A DNA stretch of 51,208 nucleotides from an uncultured SAR86 cluster bacterium (GTDB lineage: Bacteria > Pseudomonadota > Gammaproteobacteria > Magnimaribacterales > D2472): the NCBI GenBank assembly GCA_902509965.1, contig CABWZP010000005.1, positions 1 to 51,208 on the forward strand. Direction: 5' to 3'. This document shows, in pieces, positions 5,320-42,696 of the stretch (its first letter is position 1; the number at the start of each line of letters is the position of its first letter). Made by a program: the position numbers and the translations under genes. The notes below the pieces were generated by a model. It searched no databases and was not told where the DNA came from. It worked only from the letters and a program-made list of their open reading frames with translations.

Positions 5320-6165
5320 ATGAAAATTGGAATTATTGGTTATGGCTTTGTTGGCAAGGCTCTAGAGGCTGGCTTTACTGATGCAGTAAAAATATTAAAA
5401 ATAGATCCTAAACTAAATTCAAAGATTGATGATCTTATTGATTTTGATCCAGCTGCTATATTTATCTGTGTTCCAACTCCAATGAATAAAGATTCATCTC
5501 AAGATATCTCAATTTTAAGAAATGTTATCGATGAAATCAGTAAACTTAATTTAAAAGCCCTAATTGTTCTTAAAAGTACGGTTCTACCAAATTATATTAA
5601 AGAAATAGAAAATTTAATTCCTGAATTTATATACAATCCAGAGTTCTTAAGGGAAAAGCACGCAACCGAAGACTTTATTAACTCAAAATTAATAGTTTTC
5701 GGTGGAAGTCTCAATTCTTGTAAATATTTAGGAGATATTTATAACAATTTTACTAAATGCATAAGTAATGACTATATCTTCACAGATCCAACTACTGCAT
5801 CTTTAATCAAATATAGCATTAATTCATATCTTGCAACAAAGGTCACCTTTTTCAATGAATTAAATCAATTATTTAAAAAATCAAGTACAAAAAGTTCGTG
5901 GGAAGAATTTATTGGCGCAATATCAAGAGATGAAAGAATTGGTAACTCTCATATGCAAGTTCCAGGTCACGATGGAAGATTGGGTTATGGCGGAGCCTGT
6001 TTACCAAAAGATTCAAATGCTTTTTCTAAATATGCTGATGAAATAGACACACCATTAAATGTATTAAAAGCTGCAATAAATGCTAACAATAAAATTAGAT
6101 CATCGTATAATAGTGAAACAGAAAGAGAGTCAGATCAGAATATTAAGTTTAAAGGAGATAATTAG
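5320..6165 (+). CDS. UDP-glucose/GDP-mannose dehydrogenase-like protein lacking the C-terminal domain
   Basis: This looks like an NAD-dependent nucleotide-sugar 6-dehydrogenase reduced to 281 residues. The N-terminal Rossmann motif IGYGFVG (Gly7, Gly9, Gly12), the ICVPTP and STVLP strands, the NPEFLRE motif (106-112), the Lys164/Asn168 pair and the catalytic-cysteine block LGYGGACLPKD (Cys227) are all present. The third domain, which in UDP-glucose dehydrogenases closes over the UDP, is missing; the protein ends about 50 residues after the cysteine with a polar tail. The residues suggest activity, but the substrate is unclear. It sits between tRNA-Cys and tRNA-Leu, genes adjacent in E. coli, which suggests insertion. 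Codon use looks native. Confidence 0.75.
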   Translation: MKIGIIGYGFVGKALEAGFTDAVKILKIDPKLNSKIDDLIDFDPAAIFICVPTPMNKDSSQDISILRNVIDEISKLNLKALIVLKSTVLPNYIKEIENLIPEFIYNPEFLREKHATEDFINSKLIVFGGSLNSCKYLGDIYNNFTKCISNDYIFTDPTTASLIKYSINSYLATKVTFFNELNQLFKKSSTKSSWEEFIGAISRDERIGNSHMQVPGHDGRLGYGGACLPKDSNAFSKYADEIDTPLNVLKAAINANNKIRSSYNSETERESDQNIKFKGDN

Positions 6166-11642: not shown

Positions 11643-12185
11643 ATGTCTTTAAAAGCAATTTTGCTCGATCGTGATGGAGTAGTTAATATTGATTCCGGTT
11701 ATGTATATCGAATTAGTGATTTTATATTTCTTGAAGGTATTTTTGAATTAACGCGTGCGGCTGTTGCAAAAGGCTATCTAATTTTTATAGTTACTAATCA
11801 GTCTGGAATTGGACGTGGATATTACTCTGAAGAAGACTTTCAGAAAATCACTACATGGATGATCGCTCGTTTTAAATCTGAAGGTGTTGAAATAAAAAAA
11901 GTATTTTTCTCCCCCTATCATCCAGTGCATGGAATTGGAGAATATAAAAAAGATCACATATCGAGAAAACCTGGCCCAGGAATGATTTTAGAGGCTAAAA
12001 ATAAATTTGATTTAGATTTAAGTTCATGCATTCTTATCGGAGATAAAGAGTCTGATATAAAAGCGGGTATTGCAGCTGGTGTGGGTATTAATTTATATAT
12101 AGGTAACTTGGTTAGTATTGATAATTTGGAATTAGATAATTGTTATAAAATTTCTCAGATTTCTCAAGCTAAAAAATATTTATAG
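11643..12185 (+). CDS. gmhB: D-glycero-D-manno-heptose 1,7-bisphosphate 7-phosphatase, zinc loop degenerate
   Basis: A HAD-family phosphatase of 180 residues with the nucleophile motif LLDRDGVVN (Asp9, Asp11), the TNQSGIGRG motif, the SRKPGPGM block and the IGDKESDI metal site. It removes the 7-phosphate of heptose 1,7-bisphosphate. The four zinc ligands of E. coli GmhB (C-x-H and C-x-C) align with Ser90, Tyr92, His105 and Ser107, so no zinc site remains. Five of six arginines use CGN codons, unlike the AGA-rich core genes, a sign of transfer. The nearby hddC, hddA and gmhA genes complete the GDP-heptose route. Confidence 0.85.
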   Translation: MSLKAILLDRDGVVNIDSGYVYRISDFIFLEGIFELTRAAVAKGYLIFIVTNQSGIGRGYYSEEDFQKITTWMIARFKSEGVEIKKVFFSPYHPVHGIGEYKKDHISRKPGPGMILEAKNKFDLDLSSCILIGDKESDIKAGIAAGVGINLYIGNLVSIDNLELDNCYKISQISQAKKYL

Positions 12186-12196
12186 GTAAAAGATTA

Positions 12197-12913
12197 ATGA
12201 AGCAACTTTTAGTTTTAGCAGGAGGTTTTGGTACTAGACTTCGCGGTTTAGTAAAAGACGTTCCCAAGCCCCTAGCTCCAGTTGCAGGAAAACCTTTTCT
12301 TACGCATCTTATTGAGCAATGGGTAGAACAAGGCATAACAGAGTTCATTTTTCTTTTGCACTTTGAATCTCATTTAATAGAGGCCATTTTGCTAGATATT
12401 TCCAAAGATAAAGCATTTGGAGATATTCAAATTGATGTGATAGTTGAGGATCATCCTCTTGGCACCGGTGGATCAATTTTAAATGCTGTAAATTCTCTTA
12501 ATATTAAAGAATCGTTCTTAGTTGTAAATGCAGATACTTGGTTAAGTAACGGCATTATAGAAATGAATGATTCTGCTCCAAATACTATAGGCGCTGTAAT
12601 GGTAGCAAACAGTTCTCGTTATGGGGCTTTAACTCTATATAATGGTATTATTACAAGTTTTCTAGAGAAAGAAAATTCTCCCAGAGCGGGCTTGATAAAT
12701 TCTGGTTTATATCATCTAAGCCCGTTAATTTTTTTAGAACTACCAAACGTGAGTGATAGTTTTTCTTTGGAGAGCGAAGTATTCCCTTTTTGCATAAGCA
12801 ATAATATGTTGTTTGGTTTAAAAATAGATGCTGACTTTATTGACATTGGTATTCCAGAAGACTATTTAAAATTTCGAAGGTTCATCGAGTTAGGAGAAAA
12901 ATTTGAGCATTGA
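12197..12913 (+). CDS. hddC: D-glycero-alpha-D-manno-heptose 1-phosphate guanylyltransferase-like nucleotidyltransferase
   Basis: A 238-residue sugar-phosphate nucleotidyltransferase with the signature LAGGFGTRLRG (8-17), the activator lysine in VPKPLAPV, and the DHPLGTGGS and VVNADTW segments holding the metal aspartate. By family and by its neighbours gmhB, hddA and gmhA it would make GDP-D-glycero-alpha-D-manno-heptose. NTP preference cannot be read with certainty from sequence. Its stop overlaps the following kinase gene by 11 bases. Confidence 0.82.
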   Translation: MKQLLVLAGGFGTRLRGLVKDVPKPLAPVAGKPFLTHLIEQWVEQGITEFIFLLHFESHLIEAILLDISKDKAFGDIQIDVIVEDHPLGTGGSILNAVNSLNIKESFLVVNADTWLSNGIIEMNDSAPNTIGAVMVANSSRYGALTLYNGIITSFLEKENSPRAGLINSGLYHLSPLIFLELPNVSDSFSLESEVFPFCISNNMLFGLKIDADFIDIGIPEDYLKFRRFIELGEKFEH

Positions 12914-14291
12914 TACAAAAAAATTAACAATTAAGAAGGGAGCAACAATAAAAAGTGCTCTTGAAAAAATACATCAAAATCAGCATGGCATGATCTTGAT
13001 CGAGGATGTTAATGGTAAAATTATTGGAATCGCTACCGATGGCGATATTAGAGCAGCGCTTTTAGATGGCTATGTTTTAGAAGATGACATTCATAATTCT
13101 ACTAATTATGAATTTATTTCAGCAAACATAGATACTCCAAGAGAACAATTAATTAAGCGACTAGATAGCCACATAAAAGTTATTCCTATTATTAATAAAG
13201 ATGGTAAATTACATTCAGTAATTTCGAAAAAACATTTGCCAATAGAAGATGAAAAGTCAGTATATATTCGTTCGCGGGCACCTGTGCGAGTTAGTTTTGG
13301 AGGAGGGGGATCTGACTTAACTCATTATTTCGAGAATACGGTTGGTGCAGTTATTAATAGTGCAATCTCAATCTATAGTCATGCTACTATGAAGGTACGA
13401 AAAGATTCTAAGATTATAATTAGCTCCCTTGATTTGGATGCCGAATTAATTGCTGATGACCTACAACACGCATTATCTCAAAAGTGCTCTTTTGTTTTAA
13501 TTCAGTCGTTACTAAATGTTATACAGCCTAAATTTGGATTTGAGCTTTACCTTAATTCAGATTTTCCCGTTGGCTCAGGTTTGGGTGGTTCAGCATCAGT
13601 CTCAGCAGCAGTTTTAGGATGCTTTAATGAGATACGAACTGATAAATGGAATCATCATGAAATTGCTGAAATTGCTTTTCAGGCAGAACGTTTGCATTTA
13701 GGTATTGCTGGAGGGTGGCAAGATCAATATGCAGCAGTGTTTGGCGGTTTCAATTTTATAGAATTTAATTCTGATGAGAATATAGTTAACCCTATTCGAA
13801 TTCAGTCAAATATTGTAAGAGAGCTCGAGGAAAGCCTTATTCTTTGTGCTACAGGCATCGAGCACCACTCTGGAAACATTCATGATAATCAGAAAAAGGC
13901 CATGACTTCAAACTCTGTGCGTGAGATGGTTAAAGATAATGTGGAGTTAAGCTATGCAACACGTAATTATTTACTTCGAGGTGAACTTACAAAATTTGGT
14001 GAGTGTCTAGACAAAGCTTGGAAACTCAAGCGAAATTTTAGTAGTATGATAACTAACTCACACTTGGATTCAATTTATGAAGGCGCTATAAAAAATGGTG
14101 CAATAGGTGGTAAACTGCTAGGTGCTGGAGGCGGCGGTTTTTTTATTTTCTATGTTCCTCCATTTGAAAAGCATAGTTTAATTAATTACCTTAGGTCAAA
14201 AAAATTAACTTTACAGCCCTTTCGCTTTGAACAAAATGGTCTCAAAACTTGGAAACACAGAGAAAGCACCAATTCCCTGAAAGGAGAATAA
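12903..14291 (+). CDS. hddA: CBS-domain pair fused to a GHMP heptose-7-phosphate kinase
   Basis: A 462-residue two-part protein. Residues 1-115 form a tandem CBS module (KGATIKSALEKI..., IGIATDGDIRAALL, IPIINKDGKLHSVISK). Residues 123-460 are a GHMP kinase with RAPVRVSFGGGGSDL, the phosphate-binding PVGSGLGGSAS near 222-232 and the late KLLGAGGGGFF motif, closest to HddA, D-glycero-alpha-D-manno-heptose 7-phosphate kinase. Known HddA proteins are about 350 residues without CBS domains, so the fusion suggests control by an adenine nucleotide or similar ligand. The start is TTG 12903, supported by AGGAG at 12892-12896 and the overlap with hddC. Confidence 0.82.
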   Translation: MSIDTKKLTIKKGATIKSALEKIHQNQHGMILIEDVNGKIIGIATDGDIRAALLDGYVLEDDIHNSTNYEFISANIDTPREQLIKRLDSHIKVIPIINKDGKLHSVISKKHLPIEDEKSVYIRSRAPVRVSFGGGGSDLTHYFENTVGAVINSAISIYSHATMKVRKDSKIIISSLDLDAELIADDLQHALSQKCSFVLIQSLLNVIQPKFGFELYLNSDFPVGSGLGGSASVSAAVLGCFNEIRTDKWNHHEIAEIAFQAERLHLGIAGGWQDQYAAVFGGFNFIEFNSDENIVNPIRIQSNIVRELEESLILCATGIEHHSGNIHDNQKKAMTSNSVREMVKDNVELSYATRNYLLRGELTKFGECLDKAWKLKRNFSSMITNSHLDSIYEGAIKNGAIGGKLLGAGGGGFFIFYVPPFEKHSLINYLRSKKLTLQPFRFEQNGLKTWKHRESTNSLKGE

Positions 14292-14299
14292 TTAATTTT

Positions 14300-16186
14300 A
14301 TGAAAATTTCAAATTTTAAAATAGGTGAGCAAAAAGTATTTGTTATTGCTGAAATTGGAAATAATCATAATGGCAGTTTAGATTTAGCATTGGAAATGGT
14401 AGATGCTGCTAAGGATGCTGGAGCAGATTGTGTTAAATTTCAGATGAGAAATATGAATTCTGTTTATAGAAAAAAGAGCCTTGCCAAACAGGGAGAAGAT
14501 CTAGGTACTGAATACATTTTAGATCTTTTAGAACGTTTTCAGTTATCTGAAGAAGAACACAAAAAAGTTGCTCAACACTGTAGTGTCAATGGAATTCTTT
14601 ATATGTGCACTCCATGGGACTCGAATAGTATAAAGATCTTGGAGAAGCTAGATGTTCAAGCTTATAAAGTAGCCTCTGCTGACTTAACAAATTTACCATT
14701 AATTGAAAATCTTATTTCAACAAAAAAGCCCCTTATCTTGTCTACGGGTATGAGTTCTGTTGATGAAATACAAATTACAACCAAGTTCCTTAACTCAAGA
14801 AATGCTGAATTTGTTTTATTGCATTGTAATAGTACCTATCCGGCACCATTTCATGATATTAATCTTAACTGGATTAAAAAACTCATGGATATTCATCCTT
14901 TAATTGGTTATTCCGGTCATGAGAGAGGTATTTCTGTAACACTGGCAGCAGTTGGTCTTGGCGCAAAGGTTATTGAGCGACATTTCACATTTGATAGATC
15001 TATGGAAGGTCCCGATCATGCGGCTAGTCTGGAGCCTCTCGAATTTAAGGCTCTTGTTACCGGGATTCGTGAAGTTGAATTGGCCCTGGGTGATGGTTTT
15101 GAGAGAATTATTTCGCAGGGAGAAATGATAAATCGTGAAAATTTAGCTAAAAGTCTGATTGCAGCTTCAGACTTAGTCAAAGGAACTATTATCGAACCTC
15201 ACCATTTAAAAGTCCTTAGTCCTGGCCAAGGACTATCTGCTCAAAAGTATGAGGAGCTTTTAGGACGAACTGTTCAGCGTGATATGTTAGAAGAAGATTA
15301 TTTTTATCCTTCTGATCTTCAAGATTCAAGAATTGAACCTAAAAGTTATAACTTTAACCGACCATGGGGTGTGCCAGTTCGTTATCATGATTTTGCTGAA
15401 TATAATGCCAAGATTAAACCTGATATCTTTGAATTTCATCTTTCTTATTCAGATCTAGATCTTGATATAGATGATTTCTTGAATGGAGAGTATGATTGTG
15501 ATTTTGTTGTTCACGCTCCAGAACTATTTTCTGAGAGTCGGCTTATGGATTTGGCATCTCCTGATGAAGAATATCGTCAATATTCAATAAGGGAAACGCA
15601 GCGAGTTATTGATATCACGCGATCGATAAAAAAATATTTCCCAGCTACTAAACGACCAATGATTGTCGCTAATATTGGAGGCTTCACCATGGACAATTTA
15701 CTGCCAACAGATGAATTAGATAGCTATTATATTCGATTTGCTGAAAGCCTGTCCTTGCTAGACCTGGAAGGCGTTGAATTAATTCCGCAAACTATGGCAC
15801 CATTTCCTTGGCATTTCGGCGGACAACGTTATCAGAACTTATTTGTTCATGCAGATGAATGCACCCATTGGTGCGAAAAACTAAATTTACGCATGTGTTT
15901 TGATATTTCACATTCTAGATTGATGAGTAATCATTTTGATATCGATTTTTATGATTTTGCTAAAAAAATTGCTCCAATTACTGGGCATTTACATCTTGGA
16001 GATGCTAAAGGGGTTAATGGTGAGGGACTTCAGATAGGTGATGGCGATATTGATTTTGAGCGACTGGCCTTAATACTCAATGAAGAGTGTCCTAAAGCAT
16101 CATTTATTCCAGAAATTTGGCAAGGGCACAAAAATGGCGGTGAAGGATTTTGGAATGCGCTCGCCCGACTAGAAAAAATTATTTAG
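14300..16186 (+). CDS. NeuB-type sugar acid synthase fused to a xylose-isomerase-like TIM barrel
   Basis: A 628-residue fusion. Residues 1-270 are a NeuB-like PEP-condensing synthase (VIAEIGNNHNG, CVKFQMRN, YKVASADLTN, STGMSS, HCNSTYPAP, GYSGHERG and ERHFT blocks). Residues 280-345 are the SAF/antifreeze-like domain (RSLIAASD-type helix seen as KSLIAASDLVKG). From about 354 a separate domain begins (RPWGVPVRYHDF) that looks like a sugar phosphate isomerase/epimerase of the xylose-isomerase barrel type, with acidic and His residues in MCFDISHSR, GHLHLGDAKG and FIPEIWQGH. It lies inside the heptose gene set, so its sugar acceptor may be unusual. Start ATG 14300, after AAGGAG in the hddA tail. 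Confidence 0.85.
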   Translation: MKISNFKIGEQKVFVIAEIGNNHNGSLDLALEMVDAAKDAGADCVKFQMRNMNSVYRKKSLAKQGEDLGTEYILDLLERFQLSEEEHKKVAQHCSVNGILYMCTPWDSNSIKILEKLDVQAYKVASADLTNLPLIENLISTKKPLILSTGMSSVDEIQITTKFLNSRNAEFVLLHCNSTYPAPFHDINLNWIKKLMDIHPLIGYSGHERGISVTLAAVGLGAKVIERHFTFDRSMEGPDHAASLEPLEFKALVTGIREVELALGDGFERIISQGEMINRENLAKSLIAASDLVKGTIIEPHHLKVLSPGQGLSAQKYEELLGRTVQRDMLEEDYFYPSDLQDSRIEPKSYNFNRPWGVPVRYHDFAEYNAKIKPDIFEFHLSYSDLDLDIDDFLNGEYDCDFVVHAPELFSESRLMDLASPDEEYRQYSIRETQRVIDITRSIKKYFPATKRPMIVANIGGFTMDNLLPTDELDSYYIRFAESLSLLDLEGVELIPQTMAPFPWHFGGQRYQNLFVHADECTHWCEKLNLRMCFDISHSRLMSNHFDIDFYDFAKKIAPITGHLHLGDAKGVNGEGLQIGDGDIDFERLALILNEECPKASFIPEIWQGHKNGGEGFWNALARLEKII

Positions 16187-16200
16187 GAGAAAATATTTAT

Positions 16201-16779
16201 ATGAATATAGCAAATGTAAAAGAATCAGTTCAGGCTTCAATTGATGTAAAAACTCAGTTACTTCATGATACTCAACTCATTACACAAATAGTTGATTTAG
16301 CATCTAAGTGTACAGACTCATTGCACTTAGGTGGCAAAATTATTTTTTGTGGAAATGGTGGGAGTTTTGCTGATGCACAGCATCTGTCAGCTGAATTTAC
16401 ATCAAGATTCCTTTTTGATCGTCCTGGATTGGCATCGATTGCTTTGGGTACAAATAGTTCGGCCATGTCGGCTATCGGAAATGATTATGGCTATGATAAT
16501 GTGTTTTCTAGAGAAATTGAGGCCATAGCAAACCCTGTTGATGTTATTATTGCTATTACAACAAGTGGCAATAGTTCTAATATTTTAAAAGCAATAGATG
16601 CAGCTAAAATTAAAAAAATTTTTACGGTTGTCTTGACAGGATCTGGCAAAGGTAAAATATCTGACGATGTAATCACTCTTAATGTACCCTCACATGATAC
16701 TGCCCGAATCCAAGAATGTCATATTTTAATTGGGCATATTATTTGTGGCATTGTAGAAGAGGCTATTTTTGGAAGTTAA
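16201..16779 (+). CDS. gmhA: Sedoheptulose 7-phosphate isomerase
   Basis: A SIS-domain isomerase of 192 residues that turns sedoheptulose 7-phosphate into D-glycero-D-manno-heptose 7-phosphate, the entry to the heptose pathway. Family blocks are [43 protein letters not shown], the SIS phosphate loop [11 protein letters not shown], and the [14 protein letters not shown] end with the catalytic-type Glu and His. The ATG at 16201 is preceded by AGGAG at 16186-16190, at the end of the NeuB-fusion gene, indicating one operon. Confidence 0.9.
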
Positions 16780-16801: not shown

Positions 16802-18070
16802 ATGAAAAATATAAAAATAGCAATAATTGGACTGGGATATGTAGGCCTTCCTCTAGCAGTAGAATTTGGTAAAAAACATGAAGTTGTTGGTTTTGATATC
16901 AACCAAGCTAGAATTGATGAACTTAAAAAAGGTATAGACTCCACTCTTGAAACATCCTTACAAGAATTAAATGATGCATCTAGGCTGAGTTATACATTTG
17001 ATAAAAATGATATTGCAGACTGTAATATTTTTATTGTTACTGTTCCCACACCGATAGATGAATTTAAAAGACCGGATCTAATACCGTTACAAAAGGCAAG
17101 TGAAACTGTTGGCTTGTTTCTTAAAAAAGATGATATTGTTATCTACGAATCTACAGTTTACCCAGGTGCTACAGAAGAGGTCTGCGTCCCAATTCTTGAG
17201 CAGTATTCTGGCTTAAAATTTAATATAGACTTCTATTGCGGTTATTCTCCTGAAAGAATTAATCCGGGGGATAAAGAGCATCGTTTACCTTCTATCAAAA
17301 AGGTAACCGCTGGTTCTACTCCAGAAATTGCAGATATTGTTGATTCGCTTTATCAAGAGATAATAGATGCAGGAACACATAAGGCTAGCAGTATAAAAGT
17401 AGCTGAAGCAGCCAAAGTTATTGAAAATACTCAGAGAGACGTTAATATTGCACTTATTAATGAGCTAGCTCTTATCTTTAATAAATTGGATATTGATACT
17501 GAATCAGTTTTAGATGCAGCAGCCTCAAAATGGAATTTTCATCCATTTCGACCTGGATTGGTAGGAGGGCACTGTATAGGTGTTGATCCCTATTATTTGA
17601 CTCATAAAGCAATAGAGGTTGGTTATAATCCTGAGATAATTTTAGCTGGCCGCAGAATTAATGATCAAATGGGCTCCTATGTAGCAAATCAAGTATCAAA
17701 ACTTATGATGAAAGAGCTTATTCAAGTTGCTGATGCTAATGTACTTATCATGGGTTTAACTTTTAAGGAGAACTGCCCAGATATTCGAAATACACGAGTA
17801 GTTGATTTAGTAAATGCACTTAATGATTTTAACTGCAATGTCGATGTTTATGATCCTTGGGTTGATAAAGATCGCAGTATTAATGAGTGCAATATTAAGC
17901 CAATTGATAAACCTGCTAAAGGGAATTATGATGCTATTATCTTGACAGTTGCACATGATGAATTCAAAGCACTGTCTGAAGAAAAGATAAGATCTTATGG
18001 TAAAGATCGCCATGTACTTTATGACATCAAGTATTTACTGAAAGCTAATGAATCTGATGGCAGACTATAG
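16802..18070 (+). CDS. tviB: UDP-N-acetylhexosamine 6-dehydrogenase (TviB/WbpA type)
   Basis: It oxidises C6 of a UDP-HexNAc to the uronic acid. At 422 residues it is full length, with N-terminal [14 protein letters not shown], central [26 protein letters not shown] and [12 protein letters not shown], the catalytic [12 protein letters not shown] (Cys258), and the C-terminal UDP-binding domain with [13 protein letters not shown]. The motifs match the TviB/WbpA group, not UDP-glucose dehydrogenase. With the WbpP/TviC-like epimerase at 23322 it would give UDP-GalNAcA. The start is ATG 16802; the TTG at 16769, inside gmhA, gives an unlikely N-terminal extension. Confidence 0.9.
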
Positions 18071-18258: not shown

Positions 18259-18693
18259 ATGGCAATTGTTAAAGGGTTTCGACACACTGGTATTATTTGT
18301 AAAGATATAGCTAAATCGCTCGAGTTCTATAAAGATTTTTTAGGGCTAACTGTAATTCAGGATTTTTGGGATGACAGCGATTATATTAATAAAATAACTG
18401 GGCTTAGTGGTGCTAATGTTCACATGATCAAACTTAAGGCAGATGATGGGACTATCCTAGAACTGCTTGATTATGTCACTCATCCAACTGAGCTCATTGA
18501 TCAAGAAATATATAATGTGGGAGCTTGCCATGTTGCTTTACAAGTATATGACATTGAAAAAGCTTATAAAGAATTACTAAGTAAAGGGGTAGTTTTTTTG
18601 AGTGCTCCGGTATTGTCTTCTGAAGGTATTGCAAAAGTTTGTTTTTGCTTTGACCCAAATAATACTCGAATAGAATTAGTTGAAATGCTTTAA
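18259..18693 (+). CDS. VOC-superfamily (glyoxalase/epimerase-like) protein
   Basis: A 144-residue metal-dependent VOC protein with two beta-alpha-beta modules and four apparent metal ligands: His9, Glu68, His91 and Glu139. Methylmalonyl-CoA epimerase and glyoxalase I share this layout; the substrate here cannot be named. A GAGGG element precedes the ATG by 9 bases. It is preceded by a 188-base spacer with no recognisable gene and followed 78 bases later by a CMP-sugar synthetase, so a role in sugar or acyl modification is a guess from context. Confidence 0.7.
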   Translation: MAIVKGFRHTGIICKDIAKSLEFYKDFLGLTVIQDFWDDSDYINKITGLSGANVHMIKLKADDGTILELLDYVTHPTELIDQEIYNVGACHVALQVYDIEKAYKELLSKGVVFLSAPVLSSEGIAKVCFCFDPNNTRIELVEML

Positions 18694-18771: not shown

Positions 18772-19491
18772 ATGAATAAAATATTTGCCATAATCCCAGC
18801 CAGATCAGGATCGAAAGGTGTTAGGGATAAAAATATAAAAAACCTAAATGGACACTCTTTGCTGAAATGGTCAATAAATGCTGCTAAAAAATCACAATTA
18901 ATCGACAGAGTCTTTATATCTACAGATTCTCTAGAATATGCGAAAATTGGAAGTGATCATGGAGCTGAGGTTCCATTTTTGAGGCCCGCTGCTATATCTG
19001 GTGATACAGCATCTGATTTAGATTTTATAACTCATGCAATTGAAGAATTTCTTAAGATGGGTCTTAAACCCGATTATCTTGTGCATATCAGACCAACAAC
19101 ACCGATAAGAGACCCTGATATTATAGATGATGCAATTTCTTTGTTTAAAAACAACAATCAGTTCAATTCTTTGAGATCTGTTCATAAGATGTCAGAATCC
19201 TCTTATAAAACACTAGAAATTCAAAATGGAAGCCTTGTGCCTCTAGCTCTATTTGGCGATGCGAAAACAGACTCAAATGCACCGAGACAAAGTTTTCCAG
19301 ATACCTATCAGGCAAATGGTTACGTAGATGTTTTAGATACAAAATTTATAATGGAAAATCAGGAAATTCATGGAAAAAAAATACTACCTTTTATTACTGA
19401 TATTGCGCATGAGGTAGATTCAATAGAGGATTTTGATTATCTTGAGTATCAAGCATCAAATTCAAAAGAGATAATCAAAAAACTATTTTAG
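18772..19491 (+). CDS. CMP-nonulosonate synthetase-like cytidylyltransferase
   Basis: A 239-residue NeuA/PtmB-family enzyme that would couple CTP to a sugar acid. It has the N-terminal IPARSGSKGVRDKN nucleotide loop, the FISTDS strand, the RPAAISGD segment, and HIRPTTPIRDPD. The NeuB-type fusion at 14300 is the only synthase in the window that could feed it, while the nearby genes (aminotransferase, methyltransferase, SDR) could modify the sugar. A Kdo cytidylyltransferase role is less likely from the motif set. It ends with AGGAG 4 bases ahead of the next ATG, hence one operon. Confidence 0.8.
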   Translation: MNKIFAIIPARSGSKGVRDKNIKNLNGHSLLKWSINAAKKSQLIDRVFISTDSLEYAKIGSDHGAEVPFLRPAAISGDTASDLDFITHAIEEFLKMGLKPDYLVHIRPTTPIRDPDIIDDAISLFKNNNQFNSLRSVHKMSESSYKTLEIQNGSLVPLALFGDAKTDSNAPRQSFPDTYQANGYVDVLDTKFIMENQEIHGKKILPFITDIAHEVDSIEDFDYLEYQASNSKEIIKKLF

Positions 19492-19500
19492 GAGAAAGAA

Positions 19501-20880
19501 ATGTCATTTATGTTTTCACGAACGCCAAAGAAAGTATCGCCGGTAAATACTAAGAATAGATTAGTCATGACTGATATACCATGTCCAGGCACTAAAGAGA
19601 TTTTAGAAAGTTTAGATATTGTTGAGTCACGATCTATGCACGGACAAATTCCAATAATATGGGATGCTGCTTATGATTTTAATATTATTGATATAAAGGG
19701 AAATAAGTTCATTGACTTTACTTCGGCAATATTTTTTGCAAATGTTGGGCATTCAAATTTGAAAGTTTCTAATTCTATTCAAGATATGCTTAATAAACCT
19801 ATTATGGGGTGCTATGCATATGGCAGTGAGGTTAGAGCAAACTACTTGCAAAAACTTATTGAGTTTTGTGGACCAGGTTTTGATAAAGCATTTTTATTAT
19901 CTGCAGGAACTGAAGCTACTGAAGCTGCATTTAAATTAATGAGGATGTATGGCCAAACAAAGAGTAAAGAAAGGCTGGGGGTAATATCTTTAGAAAATAA
20001 TTGGCATGGCAGAACCATGGGGGCTCAGATGATGAGTGGAAATCTAAAGCAGAAAGAATGGATTGGATTCGACGATAAGGATATTCATCATCTCTCTTTC
20101 CCATATCCGTGGGTTTTAAATGGTCAGTCTGGCGAATCTTTTTTCTTAAAAAAAATACAGGAACTTAAAAAAAATGGTGTTGATCCAAAAAAAGATATTT
20201 GCGGAATGATTTTAGAAACTTTCCAGGGTTGGGGGGCTGTTTTTTATCCTAAAGATTATGTTAAAGCAGCTGAAACATTTTGTAGGGATAATGATATCGT
20301 CTTAACATTCGATGAGATGCAGGCCGGCTTTGGACGAACTGGTAAGGCTTTTGGTTATCAACATTATGATGTAGTCCCAGATCTAATATGTTGCGGAAAA
20401 GGAATGGGTAATGGATATCCTCTATCTGGTGTTATAGGTCGAGGAGATATTATGGACTTGCCGGAGATAGGAAACATGAGCAGCACACATTCCGCCAATC
20501 CAATGGCATGCGCGGTAGGCCTTGCTGTTTTAGAGGAAATAGAATCTCGTAATTTAATAGAAGAAGCAAAAAGAAAAGGAGAAATTCTAAAAACTAAATT
20601 AAATTACTTAAAAGAAATTTCAAATGGAAGAGTTAGTCATATTCTTGGAGAAGGTTTAATAAGCGCAATTCTTTTTCAAGATCCTAATACCGGTGGTGCT
20701 GATGGCCTAACAGCATCAATGGTAGCTGAAAAATGTTACGAAAAAGGTGTTTTAGTAGTTCATACCGGAAGAGAGTCAATAAAGTTAGGGCCTCCCCTGA
20801 CTATTTTAGATGAAGCTTTAATAGAAGGCCTTGATGTTATAATAGAATCTTTCAAAGAGGTTATTAAGGAAAATGAATGA
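19501..20880 (+). CDS. Class III PLP-dependent aminotransferase
   Basis: A 459-residue fold-type I aminotransferase of the ornithine/GABA group. The landmarks are SAGTEATEAAFKLMR, NNWHGRTMGAQ, the PLP-binding FDEMQAGFGRTG and the Schiff-base lysine Lys300 in CCGKGMGNGYPLSG. Nucleotide-sugar aminotransferases are usually DegT-type, so a class III enzyme beside a CMP-sugar synthetase is unusual; it may act on an open-chain keto or aldehyde substrate. AGGAG at 19491-19495 precedes the ATG. The stop overlaps the next gene by 8 bases. Confidence 0.85.
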   Translation: MSFMFSRTPKKVSPVNTKNRLVMTDIPCPGTKEILESLDIVESRSMHGQIPIIWDAAYDFNIIDIKGNKFIDFTSAIFFANVGHSNLKVSNSIQDMLNKPIMGCYAYGSEVRANYLQKLIEFCGPGFDKAFLLSAGTEATEAAFKLMRMYGQTKSKERLGVISLENNWHGRTMGAQMMSGNLKQKEWIGFDDKDIHHLSFPYPWVLNGQSGESFFLKKIQELKKNGVDPKKDICGMILETFQGWGAVFYPKDYVKAAETFCRDNDIVLTFDEMQAGFGRTGKAFGYQHYDVVPDLICCGKGMGNGYPLSGVIGRGDIMDLPEIGNMSSTHSANPMACAVGLAVLEEIESRNLIEEAKRKGEILKTKLNYLKEISNGRVSHILGEGLISAILFQDPNTGGADGLTASMVAEKCYEKGVLVVHTGRESIKLGPPLTILDEALIEGLDVIIESFKEVIKENE

Positions 20881-21580
20881 TAAGAAAAATGACTCAATAC
20901 CAGATGACTATATAAACGTTATTTATGGAGAAGATGTCAAACCCTTCACATCCTATCCTATTATATTTACAAAATATTTATTTAATAGGTTTGGATTGCA
21001 AAAAAATAGCAAACTTTTGGACCTAGGTTGTGGAAGAGGCGAATTCCTCAATGGCTTCATAGGTGCTGGTGTTTCAGGCTATGGAATTGACTTTACCGAT
21101 GCTGCCATAGAATTTTGTCCGGATGCGAATATTAAGCAAGCTGATATTGAAAATAATGGACTCCCTTATCCAGATAACTATTTTGATGTAGTGTTTTCAA
21201 AATCTGTGATCGAGCATTTTCACAATCCAGATATAATGGTTAAAGAGGTTTTTAGGTGTTTAAAGCCTGGTGGCTTAGCAATTATTTTAGCACCTTCATG
21301 GGAATATAATCACCGAATATATTTTGAGGACTATACTCATCGAACACCCTTTATGATGCCATCTTTAAATGATATTTTACTAATTCATGGTTTTGATATG
21401 GTAAATGTTGAGTTCTTTAAACAATTGCCTATTTTATGGGGAGGCTTTTACTGGTTACTTAATCCATTGTCAGTTTTAACAAGATATTTAATACCAAGAG
21501 TATTTAGTAAAAACTTTAAATGGGTAAGGTTTTCAAAAGAGATAATGCTTTTATCAACTGCTGTGAAGCCAATTAAATGA
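20873..21580 (+). CDS. SAM-dependent methyltransferase (Methyltransf_11/23 type)
   Basis: A 235-residue class I methyltransferase: motif I LLDLGCGRGEFL, a GYGIDFTDAAIEF second strand, the acidic PDNYFDVVFSKSVIEHF block and post-motif LKPGGLAIILAPSW. It resembles methyltransferases of polysaccharide loci that act on sugars or lipid-linked glycans. The start overlaps the class III aminotransferase stop and is preceded by AAGGA. It is the last gene before a probable terminator. Confidence 0.82.
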   Translation: MNDKKNDSIPDDYINVIYGEDVKPFTSYPIIFTKYLFNRFGLQKNSKLLDLGCGRGEFLNGFIGAGVSGYGIDFTDAAIEFCPDANIKQADIENNGLPYPDNYFDVVFSKSVIEHFHNPDIMVKEVFRCLKPGGLAIILAPSWEYNHRIYFEDYTHRTPFMMPSLNDILLIHGFDMVNVEFFKQLPILWGGFYWLLNPLSVLTRYLIPRVFSKNFKWVRFSKEIMLLSTAVKPIK

Positions 21581-21678: not shown

Positions 21679-22506
21679 ATGAAAAAAGATATGTTTAGGT
21701 TGGACGGAAAAATAGTTGTTATTACTGGTGCCGCAGGATTTTTAGGTCGAATGCACTCAGAAGCAGTAGCATCTTTTGGCGGTATTCCAATTCTGATAGA
21801 CCTTGAACAGAGTAATGTTGATGACTTAGCAAATGAATTAAATGAAAAATACAATGTAACTTCGTGCGGATATTCTGTAGATATTACCAATGAACAGAAT
21901 ATAAAAGATAATGTAAAATTAATAACAAAGGATTTTGGTCAGATAGATTGTTTGATTAATAATGCAGCTAATAATCCAAAAATGGAGGATGATGGTCAAG
22001 TAAATTTTTCTCGCTTGGAAAATTTCACTCTTGAAGCATGGAATAAAGATGTCAGTATTGGCCTAACTGGAACTTTCCTTTGTGCAAAGTACTATGGTTT
22101 TCAAATATCAAAAAATCCTAACGGAGGGAGTATTGTGAATATTTCTTCTGATCTTGGTTTAATAGCTCCTGATCAAAGACTTTACGCTAAAAAAAATGTG
22201 GATCTACATCTTCAGCCTGTAAAGCCAGTTACTTATTCAGTTATTAAGTCCGGATTAATTGGTTTAACGAGATATCTATCTACGTACTGGATAGATCAAA
22301 ACGTACGCTGTAATGCAATATGCCCTGGTGGTGTTGAGAATGGTCAACCAAGTGATTTTTTAAATGAGGTTAGTTTAAGAATACCTATGAAGAGGCTTGC
22401 AAAGTCTCATGAGTATCAGGGAACTTTAGTTTGGATGTTGAGTGATGCATCTAGCTATCTAAATGGAGCAATTGTTCCTGTTGATGGTGGAAGGACGGCA
22501 TGGTAG
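21679..22506 (+). CDS. Short-chain dehydrogenase/reductase (PtmA-like)
   Basis: A 275-residue SDR. The cofactor motif is TGAAGFLGRMHS, the middle motif is LINNAANNP, and the catalytic set is NISSD, Tyr186 and Lys190 (TYSVIKSG). The end LNGAIVPVDGGRTAW is typical. It resembles the SDRs of flagellin-glycan (Ptm) and O-antigen loci, which oxidise or reduce sugar or polyol substrates; the substrate here is unknown. It follows the terminator at 21618, so it may have its own promoter in the 98-base spacer. Confidence 0.8.
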   Translation: MKKDMFRLDGKIVVITGAAGFLGRMHSEAVASFGGIPILIDLEQSNVDDLANELNEKYNVTSCGYSVDITNEQNIKDNVKLITKDFGQIDCLINNAANNPKMEDDGQVNFSRLENFTLEAWNKDVSIGLTGTFLCAKYYGFQISKNPNGGSIVNISSDLGLIAPDQRLYAKKNVDLHLQPVKPVTYSVIKSGLIGLTRYLSTYWIDQNVRCNAICPGGVENGQPSDFLNEVSLRIPMKRLAKSHEYQGTLVWMLSDASSYLNGAIVPVDGGRTAW

Positions 22507-39003: not shown

Positions 39004-40377
39004 ATGTCCACCCAGCTGCCATTTTGGAGTTCTGATTTATTCGAGTCGACTGAAGGTTTTGCGATTGCAACTAAAGATGTAAATCTGACCTACTCTGATT
39101 TGAATCATATGGTAACCGAATATGCAGCTCACCTTGCGGAGTTTGATTTAAAAAACCAGCTAGCCTTTTTGCCCATGAAAATGAATATTTTCAGTGTGGT
39201 TAGATATTTAGCCTGTCTAAGAGAGTCAATTGTACCACTTCTTCTGCCATCAGATATTGATGGGAGCTTAATGCAGAACCTATATGAAGTGTATAAACCA
39301 GCATTATCTTTTGGTTTAGATGATTTGTATGAAATAGAGTTGCACAGCATGCCGGTTTTGGAAGTTGGATTGTCAAAAAATTTAGCGGTGCTACTAAACA
39401 CATCAGGCTCAACTGGAAGTGCAAAACTTGTAAAGCTTTCACACGATAACCTTTACCAAAATACTAAAGCAATCTGTGAATACCTCAAGATTAATTCCCT
39501 AGATAAGGCTCATTGCTCGCTTCCACTCAGTTACTCTTATGGCTTATCAGTTCTCAATACGCATTTACAGGCTGGTGCCTGTGTATACTTATCAGAGCTG
39601 ACTCCATTTTCTGAAAATTATTATGATGAACTTATTGAAGAGAATATAACATCAATCTCAGGTGTTCCTTTCTTCTACCAAATGTTGTTTCGGACTGGGT
39701 TTTTTGAAAAAGATATGCCTTCTCTCAAAGTGATGACACAAGCCGGAGGAAAACTTGGTGATAACCTAGTAAGAAAGTTTAGTGAATATGCAAAACTTCA
39801 CACCATAAATTTCTTTGTAATGTATGGTCAAACTGAAGCCACTGCTAGGATAAGCTATGTACCTCCTGAGATGCTGGACCAGAAAATTGGATCCATTGGA
39901 ATTGCTATACCAGGGGGAAAATTGAGTTTATCTAGTGATGGAGAGCTTGTCTATTCTGGTCCAAACGTAATGATGGGATATGCCAGAAGCAAAGCTGATT
40001 TATTTTTGAAAGAGAGTCAAATAGGTTCATTGTCTACAGGAGATTTAGCTAGGGTTGATGCAGATGGATATTATTATATAACTGGCCGACTAAAGCGTTT
40101 TGTTAAGTTGGCAGGATCCAGATATGGGTTAGATGAAATAGAGATTTTTCTTGAAGATGAATTCGAGATTTCCTGTGTGGCAGCGGGGAAGGACGACAAA
40201 CTGATAATTTTTTTGGAGCAATCTACTCTAGAAAATAATTTAATTATCACAAAACTACAGGACAAGTTTCTTATTAATAGATCTTTTATCAAAGTCCTAT
40301 CGGGTGAGCAATTAGCAAGGAAACCTAACGGCAAAAAGGACTATGCATTTTACAGGGAAAGATATAGTGAAAATTGA
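39004..40377 (+). CDS. AMP-dependent acyl-ACP/CoA ligase
   Basis: An ANL-superfamily adenylating enzyme of 457 residues. The phosphate loop is LLNTSGSTGSAKLVKLSH, the adenine motif FVMYGQTEATARISYVP, the ribose-binding aspartate is in STGDLARVDADGYYYITGR, and the hinge follows. The C-terminal catalytic lysine is probably in ARKPNGKKDY. It is shorter than fatty acyl-CoA ligases (about 550), like the small ligases of polysaccharide and NRPS loci. The ACP just upstream is the likely acceptor. Confidence 0.85.
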   Translation: MSTQLPFWSSDLFESTEGFAIATKDVNLTYSDLNHMVTEYAAHLAEFDLKNQLAFLPMKMNIFSVVRYLACLRESIVPLLLPSDIDGSLMQNLYEVYKPALSFGLDDLYEIELHSMPVLEVGLSKNLAVLLNTSGSTGSAKLVKLSHDNLYQNTKAICEYLKINSLDKAHCSLPLSYSYGLSVLNTHLQAGACVYLSELTPFSENYYDELIEENITSISGVPFFYQMLFRTGFFEKDMPSLKVMTQAGGKLGDNLVRKFSEYAKLHTINFFVMYGQTEATARISYVPPEMLDQKIGSIGIAIPGGKLSLSSDGELVYSGPNVMMGYARSKADLFLKESQIGSLSTGDLARVDADGYYYITGRLKRFVKLAGSRYGLDEIEIFLEDEFEISCVAAGKDDKLIIFLEQSTLENNLIITKLQDKFLINRSFIKVLSGEQLARKPNGKKDYAFYRERYSEN

Positions 40378-41470
40378 TAATTTAATTGAAAAACTGGATG
40401 AAATTGATTTGGTTAACCCTTATTCGATGACCGCCAGTGAAAAAATGCCGTTTCTTCAAGACTTAATGAATAGCTTAACCAGTTTTCATTATAACAACTG
40501 CATAGGTTATCGAAACTTTACCAGTGTGTTTAATGATTCTGTAAATCATCCACTAGACATAGACAGTATCCCGTTCCTTCCTGTAAGAATGTTCAAACAG
40601 CATGATTTATTTAGCTTAGATAAAAGTTTTATTTTTAAGACTTTAAACTCCAGCGGCACGTCTGGCCAGAGTGTTTCAAAAATACACCTTGATGCAACCA
40701 CAGCAAAAAGGCAGTCAAAAATTTTATCCTCGATTACTAAAAACTTTATTGGAGATGCTAGAATTCCAATGATAATCGCTGACAGTAATGAGTTATTTAA
40801 AGATAGAGCTAAACTTAATGCTAGAGCGGCTGGAATTCTTGGTTTTTCAGTATTTGGAAGGAACCATTTTTATTGTTTAGATAAAGATCTAAACTTGTTG
40901 GTAGAGGGTTTAATAGAATTCCTTGATAAACACCGTGACGGCCCTATATTTATTTTTGGATTTACTTTTATTGTTTGGCAATCATTAATACAATATGCAA
41001 TTAAGAACCAAGTTAAATTTGATTTTGGAAATCAAAGTGTTTTGATACATGGGGGTGGATGGAAAAAGCTAGAAGATCAAAAAGTTAGTAATCATGAATT
41101 TAAACAAGCTCTTCATGACCATTTAGGAATAAAACTCGTTCATAATTACTACGGAATGGTTGAGCAGGTTGGATCTATATTTATGGAGTGCGAACACGGC
41201 TATCTGCATTGCCCGAATTATGCTGAGGTGATTATTAGAGATCCTCTCAATTTTGATGTCTTACCATTCAATAGGGAGGGTGTTATTCAGGTTTTAAGCG
41301 CACTCCCAGTAAGTTATCCAGGACATTCACTGCTTACAGAGGATCTTGGAACAGTGCATGGCGAGGATGATTGTGGCTGCGGCCGAAAAGGCAAGTATTT
41401 TACTGTATCTGGAAGAATGCCACTAGCGGAGCTTCGGGGCTGCAGTGATACAAGGGAGGTAAAAATATGA
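40343..41470 (+). CDS. LuxE-like acyl-protein synthetase / acyltransferase
   Basis: A 375-residue LuxE/PaaK-like protein. LNSSGTSGQSVSKIHLD is the phosphate loop, VLIHGGGWKKLEDQ a characteristic LuxE stretch, and NYYGMVEQVGSIFMEC the adenine-binding region. LuxE activates fatty acids and hands them to the LuxC reductase. ATG 40343 overlaps the ligase by 35 bases; GTG 40367, with AGGGAAAG upstream, is an equally good start. The stop overlaps luxC-like by ATGA, so the two are coupled. Confidence 0.82.
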   Translation: MHFTGKDIVKIDNLIEKLDEIDLVNPYSMTASEKMPFLQDLMNSLTSFHYNNCIGYRNFTSVFNDSVNHPLDIDSIPFLPVRMFKQHDLFSLDKSFIFKTLNSSGTSGQSVSKIHLDATTAKRQSKILSSITKNFIGDARIPMIIADSNELFKDRAKLNARAAGILGFSVFGRNHFYCLDKDLNLLVEGLIEFLDKHRDGPIFIFGFTFIVWQSLIQYAIKNQVKFDFGNQSVLIHGGGWKKLEDQKVSNHEFKQALHDHLGIKLVHNYYGMVEQVGSIFMECEHGYLHCPNYAEVIIRDPLNFDVLPFNREGVIQVLSALPVSYPGHSLLTEDLGTVHGEDDCGCGRKGKYFTVSGRMPLAELRGCSDTREVKI

Positions 41471-42696
41471 GCGTTAGTATTTTATTCGCTCATGAAAAGG
41501 TAGCTTCGGTTGAAGACGCAATAGATTATCTTGAAAGTTGCAGTATTTGGAATATCTTCGACAAAAGAGCAGTTTCTTTCATTAATAAATTTTCTTCTTT
41601 ATTGCTTAAATATCCAGCTATTAATCAGTACCCAGATTTAGTTGCCTTGGCTTATTGGTTTAGGCGTGCGAATATTCACAAACTAGAGCAACATTATATT
41701 AACGATAAAGATGTTTTCAGAGTGGGTAGAGGTTTATCGTTGCACATAGCTCCTAGTAATGTAGATACTATTTTTGTTTATTCTTTTTTCTTATCTCTCC
41801 TTGCAGGAAATTCTAGTTTTATTAGAGTGTCCCAAAAGAGTTCTCCTCAACTAGATATTATTATCCAATTGTTTCAAGATCTTTATGATTCAGGTGAGAC
41901 TGAAACTGCAGGTAGGTTTGTGATTTGTACCTACCCACATGAAGACACAACCACTGAAATAGTGTCAAAGCTTTGCGAGCTGAGAATTATATGGGGTGGC
42001 GATAAGACCGTCAGTAATATCACTGCAATACCTCTTAATCCCACAGCTTTAGAAATAAAATTCCCTAATAGAATATCTTTTTCTGCCATAAATTTATCAA
42101 CACTTACTAAGACAACTGACAAAGAACTGATTAGATTATGTGAAAATTTTTATGCTGATATACAGCTATTTGGTCAGCAAGCGTGTTCCTCTCCATTGGC
42201 TTTATATTTTGTCGGCTCCTCGGGCCCCTGTGAGCAATCTGAGAGATTTTGGAATTTCTTCGCAGCAGCTGCAAAAAATCATAAATTATCTGCTTCAGAG
42301 GTAATGGATAGGTATGTCTCATTATCCAGTATGGCGATTTCTGGAATAGTTGATAAAGCAGAAGTGCCATTTAGTCATGATAAAGTCCTCCTACTTAATG
42401 GTAGTCTAACAACACAGATATCTTTCAGAGATGGACATCCAGGAAATGGCTCTATAGTTCAATTTTTTTTGCCACAAATAGCGGATCTTTCAAGCCACAT
42501 AAGGCCCAAAGATCAAACATTATCCATTCACGGATTTTCTTTGGGAGAGGTGGGTGAGCTTTTAGCCTCTCTTACCAATAGAGGTTTAGATAGGGTGGTG
42601 CCTATTGGGCAGGCATTAGAATTTAGTAATATATGGGATGGTTATGATCTAATTGATTCTATGTCTAGAAAGATTGACGTATCAAAAATAAAGTAG
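41467..42696 (+). CDS. LuxC-like acyl-CoA/acyl-protein reductase
   Basis: A 409-residue member of the LuxC (PF05893-type) family, which reduces activated acyl groups to aldehydes with NAD(P)H. The Rossmann region reads GLSLHIAPSNVDTIFVYSF and the acyl-accepting cysteine is Cys240 in LFGQQACSSP. VYSFFLSLLAGNSSFIRVS and LRIIWGGDKTV match LuxC. No luxAB luciferase genes occur in the window, so the aldehyde goes elsewhere, probably into a polysaccharide substituent. A similar ACP/ligase/LuxC-like set exists in the V. cholerae O1 rfb locus (rfbKLMNO). Confidence 0.85.
   Translation: MSVSILFAHEKVASVEDAIDYLESCSIWNIFDKRAVSFINKFSSLLLKYPAINQYPDLVALAYWFRRANIHKLEQHYINDKDVFRVGRGLSLHIAPSNVDTIFVYSFFLSLLAGNSSFIRVSQKSSPQLDIIIQLFQDLYDSGETETAGRFVICTYPHEDTTTEIVSKLCELRIIWGGDKTVSNITAIPLNPTALEIKFPNRISFSAINLSTLTKTTDKELIRLCENFYADIQLFGQQACSSPLALYFVGSSGPCEQSERFWNFFAAAAKNHKLSASEVMDRYVSLSSMAISGIVDKAEVPFSHDKVLLLNGSLTTQISFRDGHPGNGSIVQFFLPQIADLSSHIRPKDQTLSIHGFSLGEVGELLASLTNRGLDRVVPIGQALEFSNIWDGYDLIDSMSRKIDVSKIK

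Follow-up and report, generated by a model that had tools for sequence, protein, structure and literature searches.

Which sugar does a NeuB-type synthase act on when it is encoded in the middle of a set of heptose genes? The question is raised by a contig of an uncultured SAR86 cluster bacterium (CABWZP010000005.1; the stretch analysed, positions 1 to 51,208, is called the window below), in which an open reading frame (ORF) for a NeuB synthase fused to a xylose-isomerase-like (XI) domain, termed NeuB-XI, lies between the genes for an HddA-type kinase and a GmhA-type isomerase. The known bacterial routes to sialic-acid-like sugars mostly use N-acetylated acceptors, which are freed by a small number of hydrolases or epimerases, and an earlier note on this DNA had raised the idea that NeuB-XI adds phosphoenolpyruvate (PEP) to a C7 sugar. 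We consider it rather probable that these genes form the central part of a cassette that is widespread, moves horizontally and serves to make a cytidine monophosphate (CMP)-activated, sialic-acid-like ulosonic acid from a non-acetylated sugar that heptose-type enzymes supply or activate. They represent a real, conserved and apparently undescribed variant of nonulosonate biosynthesis; the full text of open papers, with subscription papers outside the search, yielded no description of a system that combines NeuB, heptose genes, an isomerase fusion and C10 sugar acids.

Gene content and conservation of the cassette

All five genes were found where the earlier note had placed them, on the (+) strand from 11643 to 16779. 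The first encodes a GmhB-type heptose bisphosphate 7-phosphatase (11643..12185), which passes its curated cut-off (TIGR00213, 165 versus 149.6 bits). It is followed by an HddC-type sugar-1-phosphate guanylyltransferase (12197..12913; HddC is the top NCBIfam match with 135 bits, cut-off 300; PDB 6jq8, E 2e-34) and an HddA-type heptose-7-phosphate kinase of the GHMP family (12903..14291; NF049969, 273 bits, cut-off 600; PDB 4n3o, E 1.5e-63). The kinase carries an N-terminal CBS pair (PF00571, 8.8e-12), which had been overlooked. NeuB-XI (14300..16186) contains NeuB (PF03102, 1.1e-85), SAF (PF08666) and AP_endonuc_2 (PF01261, 1e-19) domains in this order in one ORF, in agreement with the fusion proposed before. 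A GmhA-type sedoheptulose-7-phosphate isomerase (16201..16779; gmhA families, 174 bits, cut-off 209; PDB 2x3y, E 1.7e-52) completes the set.

The earlier assignment to the known GDP-heptose route thus holds for the enzyme types, all four of which are present. Because HddC, HddA and GmhA score below their curated equivalog cut-offs, heptose is the best, not a proven, assignment for these three. The low scores would also fit enzymes that use another sugar phosphate (C6 or C8), which NeuB-XI would extend to a C9 or C11 acid, and in lincosamide (lincomycin) biosynthesis the same enzyme set acts on an octose. We regard a different chain length as improbable: the closest solved relatives of GmhA, HddA and HddC (2x3y, 4n3o and 6jq8) are all heptose enzymes, and common hexoses, unlike sugars with a terminal phosphate such as heptose 7-phosphate, need no kinase/phosphatase route.

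The genes had also been described as joined by overlaps and ribosome-binding sites. Shine-Dalgarno-like GGAG motifs are indeed present at the starts, but the only real overlap is that of HddC and CBS-HddA (11 nt). CBS-HddA probably starts at TTG 12903, with GGAG ahead of it. The most likely start of NeuB-XI is ATG 14300, just past the HddA stop and preceded by AGGAG at about 14282, and GmhA probably starts at ATG 16201, just past the NeuB-XI stop, again with a GGAG ahead. The apparent long overlaps arise because the ORFs were counted from upstream TTG codons (14249 for NeuB-XI, 16150 for GmhA).

The isomerase-like domain was used to search 84,980 species genomes, in which at least 544 relatives were detected. 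Of these, the 80 best loci were retained; they are those closest to the window and an uneven sample of the whole family, and their gene contents, determined by tblastn at 1e-8, are lower bounds. The gene order, which the earlier note had suggested searching for in other genomes, repeats among them as HddC, CBS-HddA, NeuB-XI, GmhA and CMP transferase, with gaps and substitutions. The first four genes form the core, which was found in glycan loci across about ten phyla, i.e. Pseudomonadota, Bacteroidota, Chlorobiota, Cyanobacteriota, Nitrospirota, Bdellovibrionota, Balneolota, Myxococcota, Thermodesulfobacteriota and, with one bin, Actinomycetota. Many of these genomes are metagenome bins, which can be misassigned; carriers that are not labelled as metagenome-assembled genomes include Bradyrhizobium, Chlorobium phaeovibrioides, Cyanobium, Aestuariibacter, Daejeonella and one Rhodobacterales strain. 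The phyla are intermingled in the NeuB-XI tree (quick method, moderate support), which points to horizontal transfer of the cassette. No relative of the XI domain was found in phage records, and the plasmid collection contained one, on pT173e of Ensifer canadensis, which belongs to the heptose-free class described below.

In 42 of 46 loci (near copies removed, sufficient upstream DNA), HddA is the next gene upstream of NeuB-XI. L063 and L065 were rejected as HddA-free loci; the absence of HddA there merely reflects contigs that start within or at the NeuB-XI gene. Thirty HddA loci have good flanks, and the CBS pair is present in all 30, HddC in 24, GmhA in 22 and GmhB in 12. The other members are a CMP transferase (26), a short-chain dehydrogenase termed SDR2 (27), SDR1 or a Gfo/Idh dehydrogenase (25), a second XI-like protein (23) and any aminotransferase (23), which can be of class III (9), IlvE-like class IV (9) or DegT-like (8). 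Chance neighbourhood of the heptose genes is ruled out by a gene order that repeats in dozens of unrelated genomes.

In pairwise identities, HddA correlates with the XI domain at r 0.85 and with the NeuB domain at 0.77, which is about as tight as the correlation of NeuB and XI within one protein (0.83), whereas the CMP transferase, although it has to act on the product, correlates with NeuB at 0.35. HddA is present in 51 of 398 Pseudomonadota genomes. Its CBS-fused form was found at four places, all in NeuB-XI genomes (the window genome plus three that belong to a single genus, g377, and have cassettes that match the Bradyrhizobium type), whereas the other 57 HddA places are without CBS. Judged by gene order and co-variation, the heptose enzymes and NeuB-XI are one conserved linked unit in the heptose-linked clade, and the pathway of NeuB-XI probably includes the heptose enzymes.

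Alternatively, one operon could serve two products for the same glycan, i.e. GDP-D-glycero-D-manno-heptose and a CMP-ulosonic acid, e.g. a KDN-like one from mannose or mannose 6-phosphate, and NeuB-XI would never meet a heptose. The full GDP-heptose enzyme set of the window, the retention of HddC in 24 of the 30 well-flanked loci and the occurrence of NeuB-XI without heptose genes are compatible with this explanation. Several observations make it on balance unlikely. HddA tracks NeuB-XI much more closely than the CMP transferase does, and the HddA of the cassette is a special CBS-fused form, with one CBS-HddA genome (G452) encoding a second, ordinary HddA elsewhere. A same-family relative of the window genome, recorded as SAR86 cluster bacterium (G015, 94% complete, locus L059), retains GmhA, CBS-HddA and GmhB, but no HddC was found in it except for a MurU-like protein; HddC was likewise not found in three small genomes of uncertain completeness. 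GDP activation may therefore be dispensable, which weakens, but does not remove, GDP-heptose as a second product.

The earlier note had named fusions unlinked to heptose genes as evidence against its idea. Such cases do exist: divergent NeuB-XI in L016, L017, L122 and L124 have no linked heptose genes, while the linkage holds in the heptose-linked clade. Heptose specificity is therefore a feature of the linked clade and not of the fusion in general. The heptose-free members form a separate clade in the NeuB-XI tree (again by the quick method, with moderate support), and whole-genome searches of G009, G119, G348, G157 and G451 found no HddA. In the four divergent loci the CBS pair is located at the N-terminus of NeuB-XI itself, and a CMP transferase is nearby. 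CBS and NeuB-XI therefore appear to belong together, with HddA standing between them in the heptose-linked class.

Additional genes were noticed around several loci. In the heptose-free class, NeuB-XI adjoins homologous glycosyltransferases on two IMG/VR contigs (L102 and L105); in L102, it is directly preceded by the gene for a GT29 sialyltransferase-family protein and followed by genes for a DapA-like protein and a CMP transferase. Near the CBS-NeuB-XI of L016, a CTP_transf_like (RfaE2-like) nucleotidyltransferase is fused to a mannose-6-phosphate isomerase C-terminal cupin (L016:2349-3122). A LIC12162-family transferase (TIGR04331), which may transfer the product, occurs near the cassette end in L039 (15724-17505) and five further well-flanked loci. 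A small winged-helix (MarR-like) protein is repeatedly encoded upstream of the cassette (L029:5848-6219, L036, L016, L023, L027 and L035). In several Bradyrhizobium strains (L068-L100), an HddC-like and a GmhB-like part apparently make up one fused protein (about 400 aa), which is encoded a few kb away from the cassette and often by pse genes.

The NeuB half, the isomerase-like domain and the acceptor

The PEP- and metal-binding residues of meningococcal NeuB (Nm E25, K53, K129, S132, S154, S213, H215, E234, H236 and D247) are kept in every fusion that covers the respective site (88-90 of 90), and judging by these residues the NeuB half has what PEP condensation requires. The acceptor site is different. 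In the meningococcal enzyme, the N-acetyl group of N-acetylmannosamine is positioned by a SAF-domain arginine, Arg314, and Asn74, Phe112 and Phe288 line the acceptor site (PMC6795526); the R314A variant is inactive according to the passage of that paper that cites Joseph et al. 2013. This arginine was found in none of the 90 fusions, which have Ser in 88 cases and Thr and Ala in the rest, whereas six of the seven stand-alone NeuB-family proteins of the same loci that cover the site keep it. The heptose-linked fusions have Leu, Trp and Asn at Nm 74, 112 and 288. At position 288, Asn is present in 43 of 43 heptose-linked fusions, while the heptose-free class has Val, Thr, Ser or Gly, and further differences between the two classes occur beside Asp247 and His236.

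NeuB-XI is the sole NeuB-family protein in the window genome (G000; 1.08 Mb, 82% complete) and in G015, G009, G813 and G451. Families that release known acceptors were searched for in the first four of these genomes, and no hydrolysing 2-epimerase (PF02350) above the cut-off, no GlcNAc 2-epimerase (PF07221) and no PseG were found. In Bradyrhizobium sp. 141 (G820), PseG adjoins a separate, ordinary NeuB and not the fusion. The loss of Arg314 and the missing acceptor-releasing families in the four single-NeuB genomes disfavour an N-acetylated acceptor; by these sequence criteria an N-acetyl hexosamine or other 2-acetamido sugar is an improbable acceptor.

The NeuB half is closest to N-acetylneuraminate synthase (NeuB_NnaB, 344 bits, cut-off 400; PseI, 255 bits, cut-off 340), and the CMP transferase is closest to PseF, as would be expected if the product were an ordinary N-acetylated nonulosonic acid of the N-acetylneuraminic, legionaminic or pseudaminic type beside unrelated heptose genes. 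Both NeuB scores are below the cut-off, and the absence of Arg314 from all 90 fusions, the missing releasing enzymes and the cross-phylum gene order make such a product very improbable.

The XI domain (15344..16186) was modelled with AlphaFold2 with a pLDDT of 93.7, and the model confirms the TIM-barrel fold of its family. Among solved structures, ketose 3-epimerases have the closest fold by Foldseek/VIA comparison (3wqo, Z 24.9, rmsd 2.5 over 241 residues), slightly ahead of endonuclease IV and xylose isomerase. The metal-site residues are Q514, D552, H582 and E622 (numbering of the ORF translation). Asp552, His582 and Glu622 are invariant, but the first metal/base Glu, which is a Glu at the aligned position of 3wqo, is replaced by Gln514 in 43 of 43 heptose-linked and seven of eight other members, so that the quartet is Gln/Asp/His/Glu instead of Glu/Asp/His/Glu. 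Two-base 3-epimerisation is therefore unlikely, and we infer a one-base isomerisation or a similar step on the acceptor. An endonuclease IV-like hydrolase was also considered and rejected: the fold is similar (5zhz), yet several metal ligands, at what we take to be their positions in the alignment, seem to be replaced.

Proposed pathway and the remaining genes of the region

Taken together, the conserved linked unit, the kept PEP residues and the improbable 2-acetamido acceptor make a C7 acceptor a better supported idea than it was from one locus; we infer a heptose as the putative acceptor from the linkage. In the proposed pathway, GmhA would convert sedoheptulose 7-phosphate to heptose 7-phosphate, and HddA and GmhB, plus HddC where present, would handle the heptose phosphate under CBS control. 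NeuB-XI would add PEP to a neutral aldose, which in the heptose-linked clade would most likely be heptose-derived, and the isomerase-like domain would probably present or reshape this aldose by ketose/aldose or epimer conversion. The variable downstream set, i.e. an aminotransferase, the second XI-like protein, dehydrogenases and a methyltransferase, would decorate the acid, which the CMP transferase would activate for an O-antigen or a flagellar glycan. In its most specific form, PEP and a C7 aldose made by the operon would yield a C10 3-deoxy-deculosonic acid, which would then be aminated and CMP-activated, by a system spread by gene transfer over about ten phyla; we put this forward tentatively and with more doubt than confidence.

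Several points weigh against a heptose-derived acceptor. We know of no enzyme step by which a free acceptor would arise from heptose 1-phosphate or GDP-heptose, and no obvious NDP-sugar hydrolase is among the cassette genes; the need for the anomeric kinase HddA is therefore unexplained, as the acceptor requires a free aldehyde. It could be that GDP-heptose merely provides a further sugar for the same glycan, and the substrate of HddC, HddA and GmhA may be other than heptose because of their scores below the curated cut-offs. NeuB-XI can do without heptose enzymes, as the heptose-free class shows, the co-variation of neighbouring genes is partly an effect of adjacency, and the window genome is only 82% complete.

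The operon continues past GmhA on the same strand. It encodes a TviB-type UDP-GlcNAc 6-dehydrogenase for a separate sugar (16802..18070; NF011729, 648 bits, above the cut-off of 592), a VOC-family protein (18259..18693; PF13669/PF00903), a recurrent cassette member that is found beside the class III aminotransferase in many loci, and a PseF/NeuA-like CMP-ulosonate transferase (18772..19491; PseF TIGR03584, 125 bits; the PDB matches are CMP-Neu5Ac synthetases), which the earlier note had missed. A class III aminotransferase (19501..20880; PF00202, 8e-86) and an S-adenosylmethionine-dependent methyltransferase (20873..21580; PF08241) follow, both of which are members in one cassette sub-type, and then SDR2 (21679..22506; PF13561), the G015 homologue of which best matches PRK09186 and PtmA. 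The surrounding polysaccharide region is bordered by uvrC/pgsA on one side and, as judged by eye, infC/pheST-like genes on the other. It includes an AMP-binding ligase, a LuxE-type acyl-protein synthetase and a LuxC-type acyl-CoA reductase in a row (39004-42696), fatty-aldehyde-type enzymes that are unusual for a surface-sugar locus. A short UDP-glucose dehydrogenase-like protein (5320-6165) covers only profile positions 78-305 of 413; an equally short homologue (L021, 284 aa, in G015) is 59% identical.

Sialic-acid-like sugars influence the encounters of bacteria with hosts, phages and other bacteria. If the acceptor is a heptose, the natural ulosonic acids would extend to C10; if it is a neutral hexose, bacteria would have a new KDN-like route, in which the synthase brings its own fused helper domain. 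In both cases, hundreds of genes that are likely annotated as sialic acid synthases would call for a more accurate name. The cassette, with its synthase that lacks the N-acetyl anchor and is tied to heptose enzymes, is also present in cultured strains of Bradyrhizobium, Chlorobium and Cyanobium.

Comparison with known systems

To our knowledge, there is no natural example of a C10 3-deoxy-deculosonic surface sugar acid. Bradyrhizose is a C10 sugar. It is a unique bicyclic sugar of Bradyrhizobium, the genes for which were unknown, with an 11-gene cluster of photosynthetic strains that includes a dTDP-glucose 4,6-dehydratase as a candidate (PMC4743980). We found no link between bradyrhizose and the cassette and do not claim it as the product. 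The NeuB fusion of Leptospira (PMC3438082) was ruled out as the same system, as it is a NeuB-phosphatase fusion.

The cassette resembles the GDP-D-glycero-alpha-D-manno-heptose pathway in having GmhA, HddA, GmhB and HddC types with heptose enzymes as best matches. It differs in the CBS pair of HddA, in three enzymes below the curated cut-offs, in its connection to the NeuB fusion and in the occasional lack of HddC. With NeuB, LegI and PseI, the fusion shares the NeuB barrel and SAF domain, all PEP/metal residues and the subsequent CMP transferase. In contrast to them, it has an additional C-terminal isomerase-like domain, a Ser instead of the SAF Arg and other residues at Nm 74, 112 and 288, and no NeuC, LegG or PseG partner was found in the four genomes examined.

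The Ptm/Leg route to legionaminic acid in Campylobacter is GDP-sugar based and includes PtmE with CBS. The cassette likewise has a GDP-sugar nucleotidyltransferase, a CBS domain, a PtmA-like SDR, NeuB and a CMP transferase, but it is without a dehydratase or LegG step, and kinase/phosphatase heptose-type enzymes replace the GlmS and mutase types. With the D-tagatose/allulose 3-epimerase family (PF01261), the C-terminal domain shares the fold and the Asp/His/Glu metal-site residues, whereas it has Gln in place of the first metal/base Glu in nearly all members and is fused to a PEP-condensing synthase.

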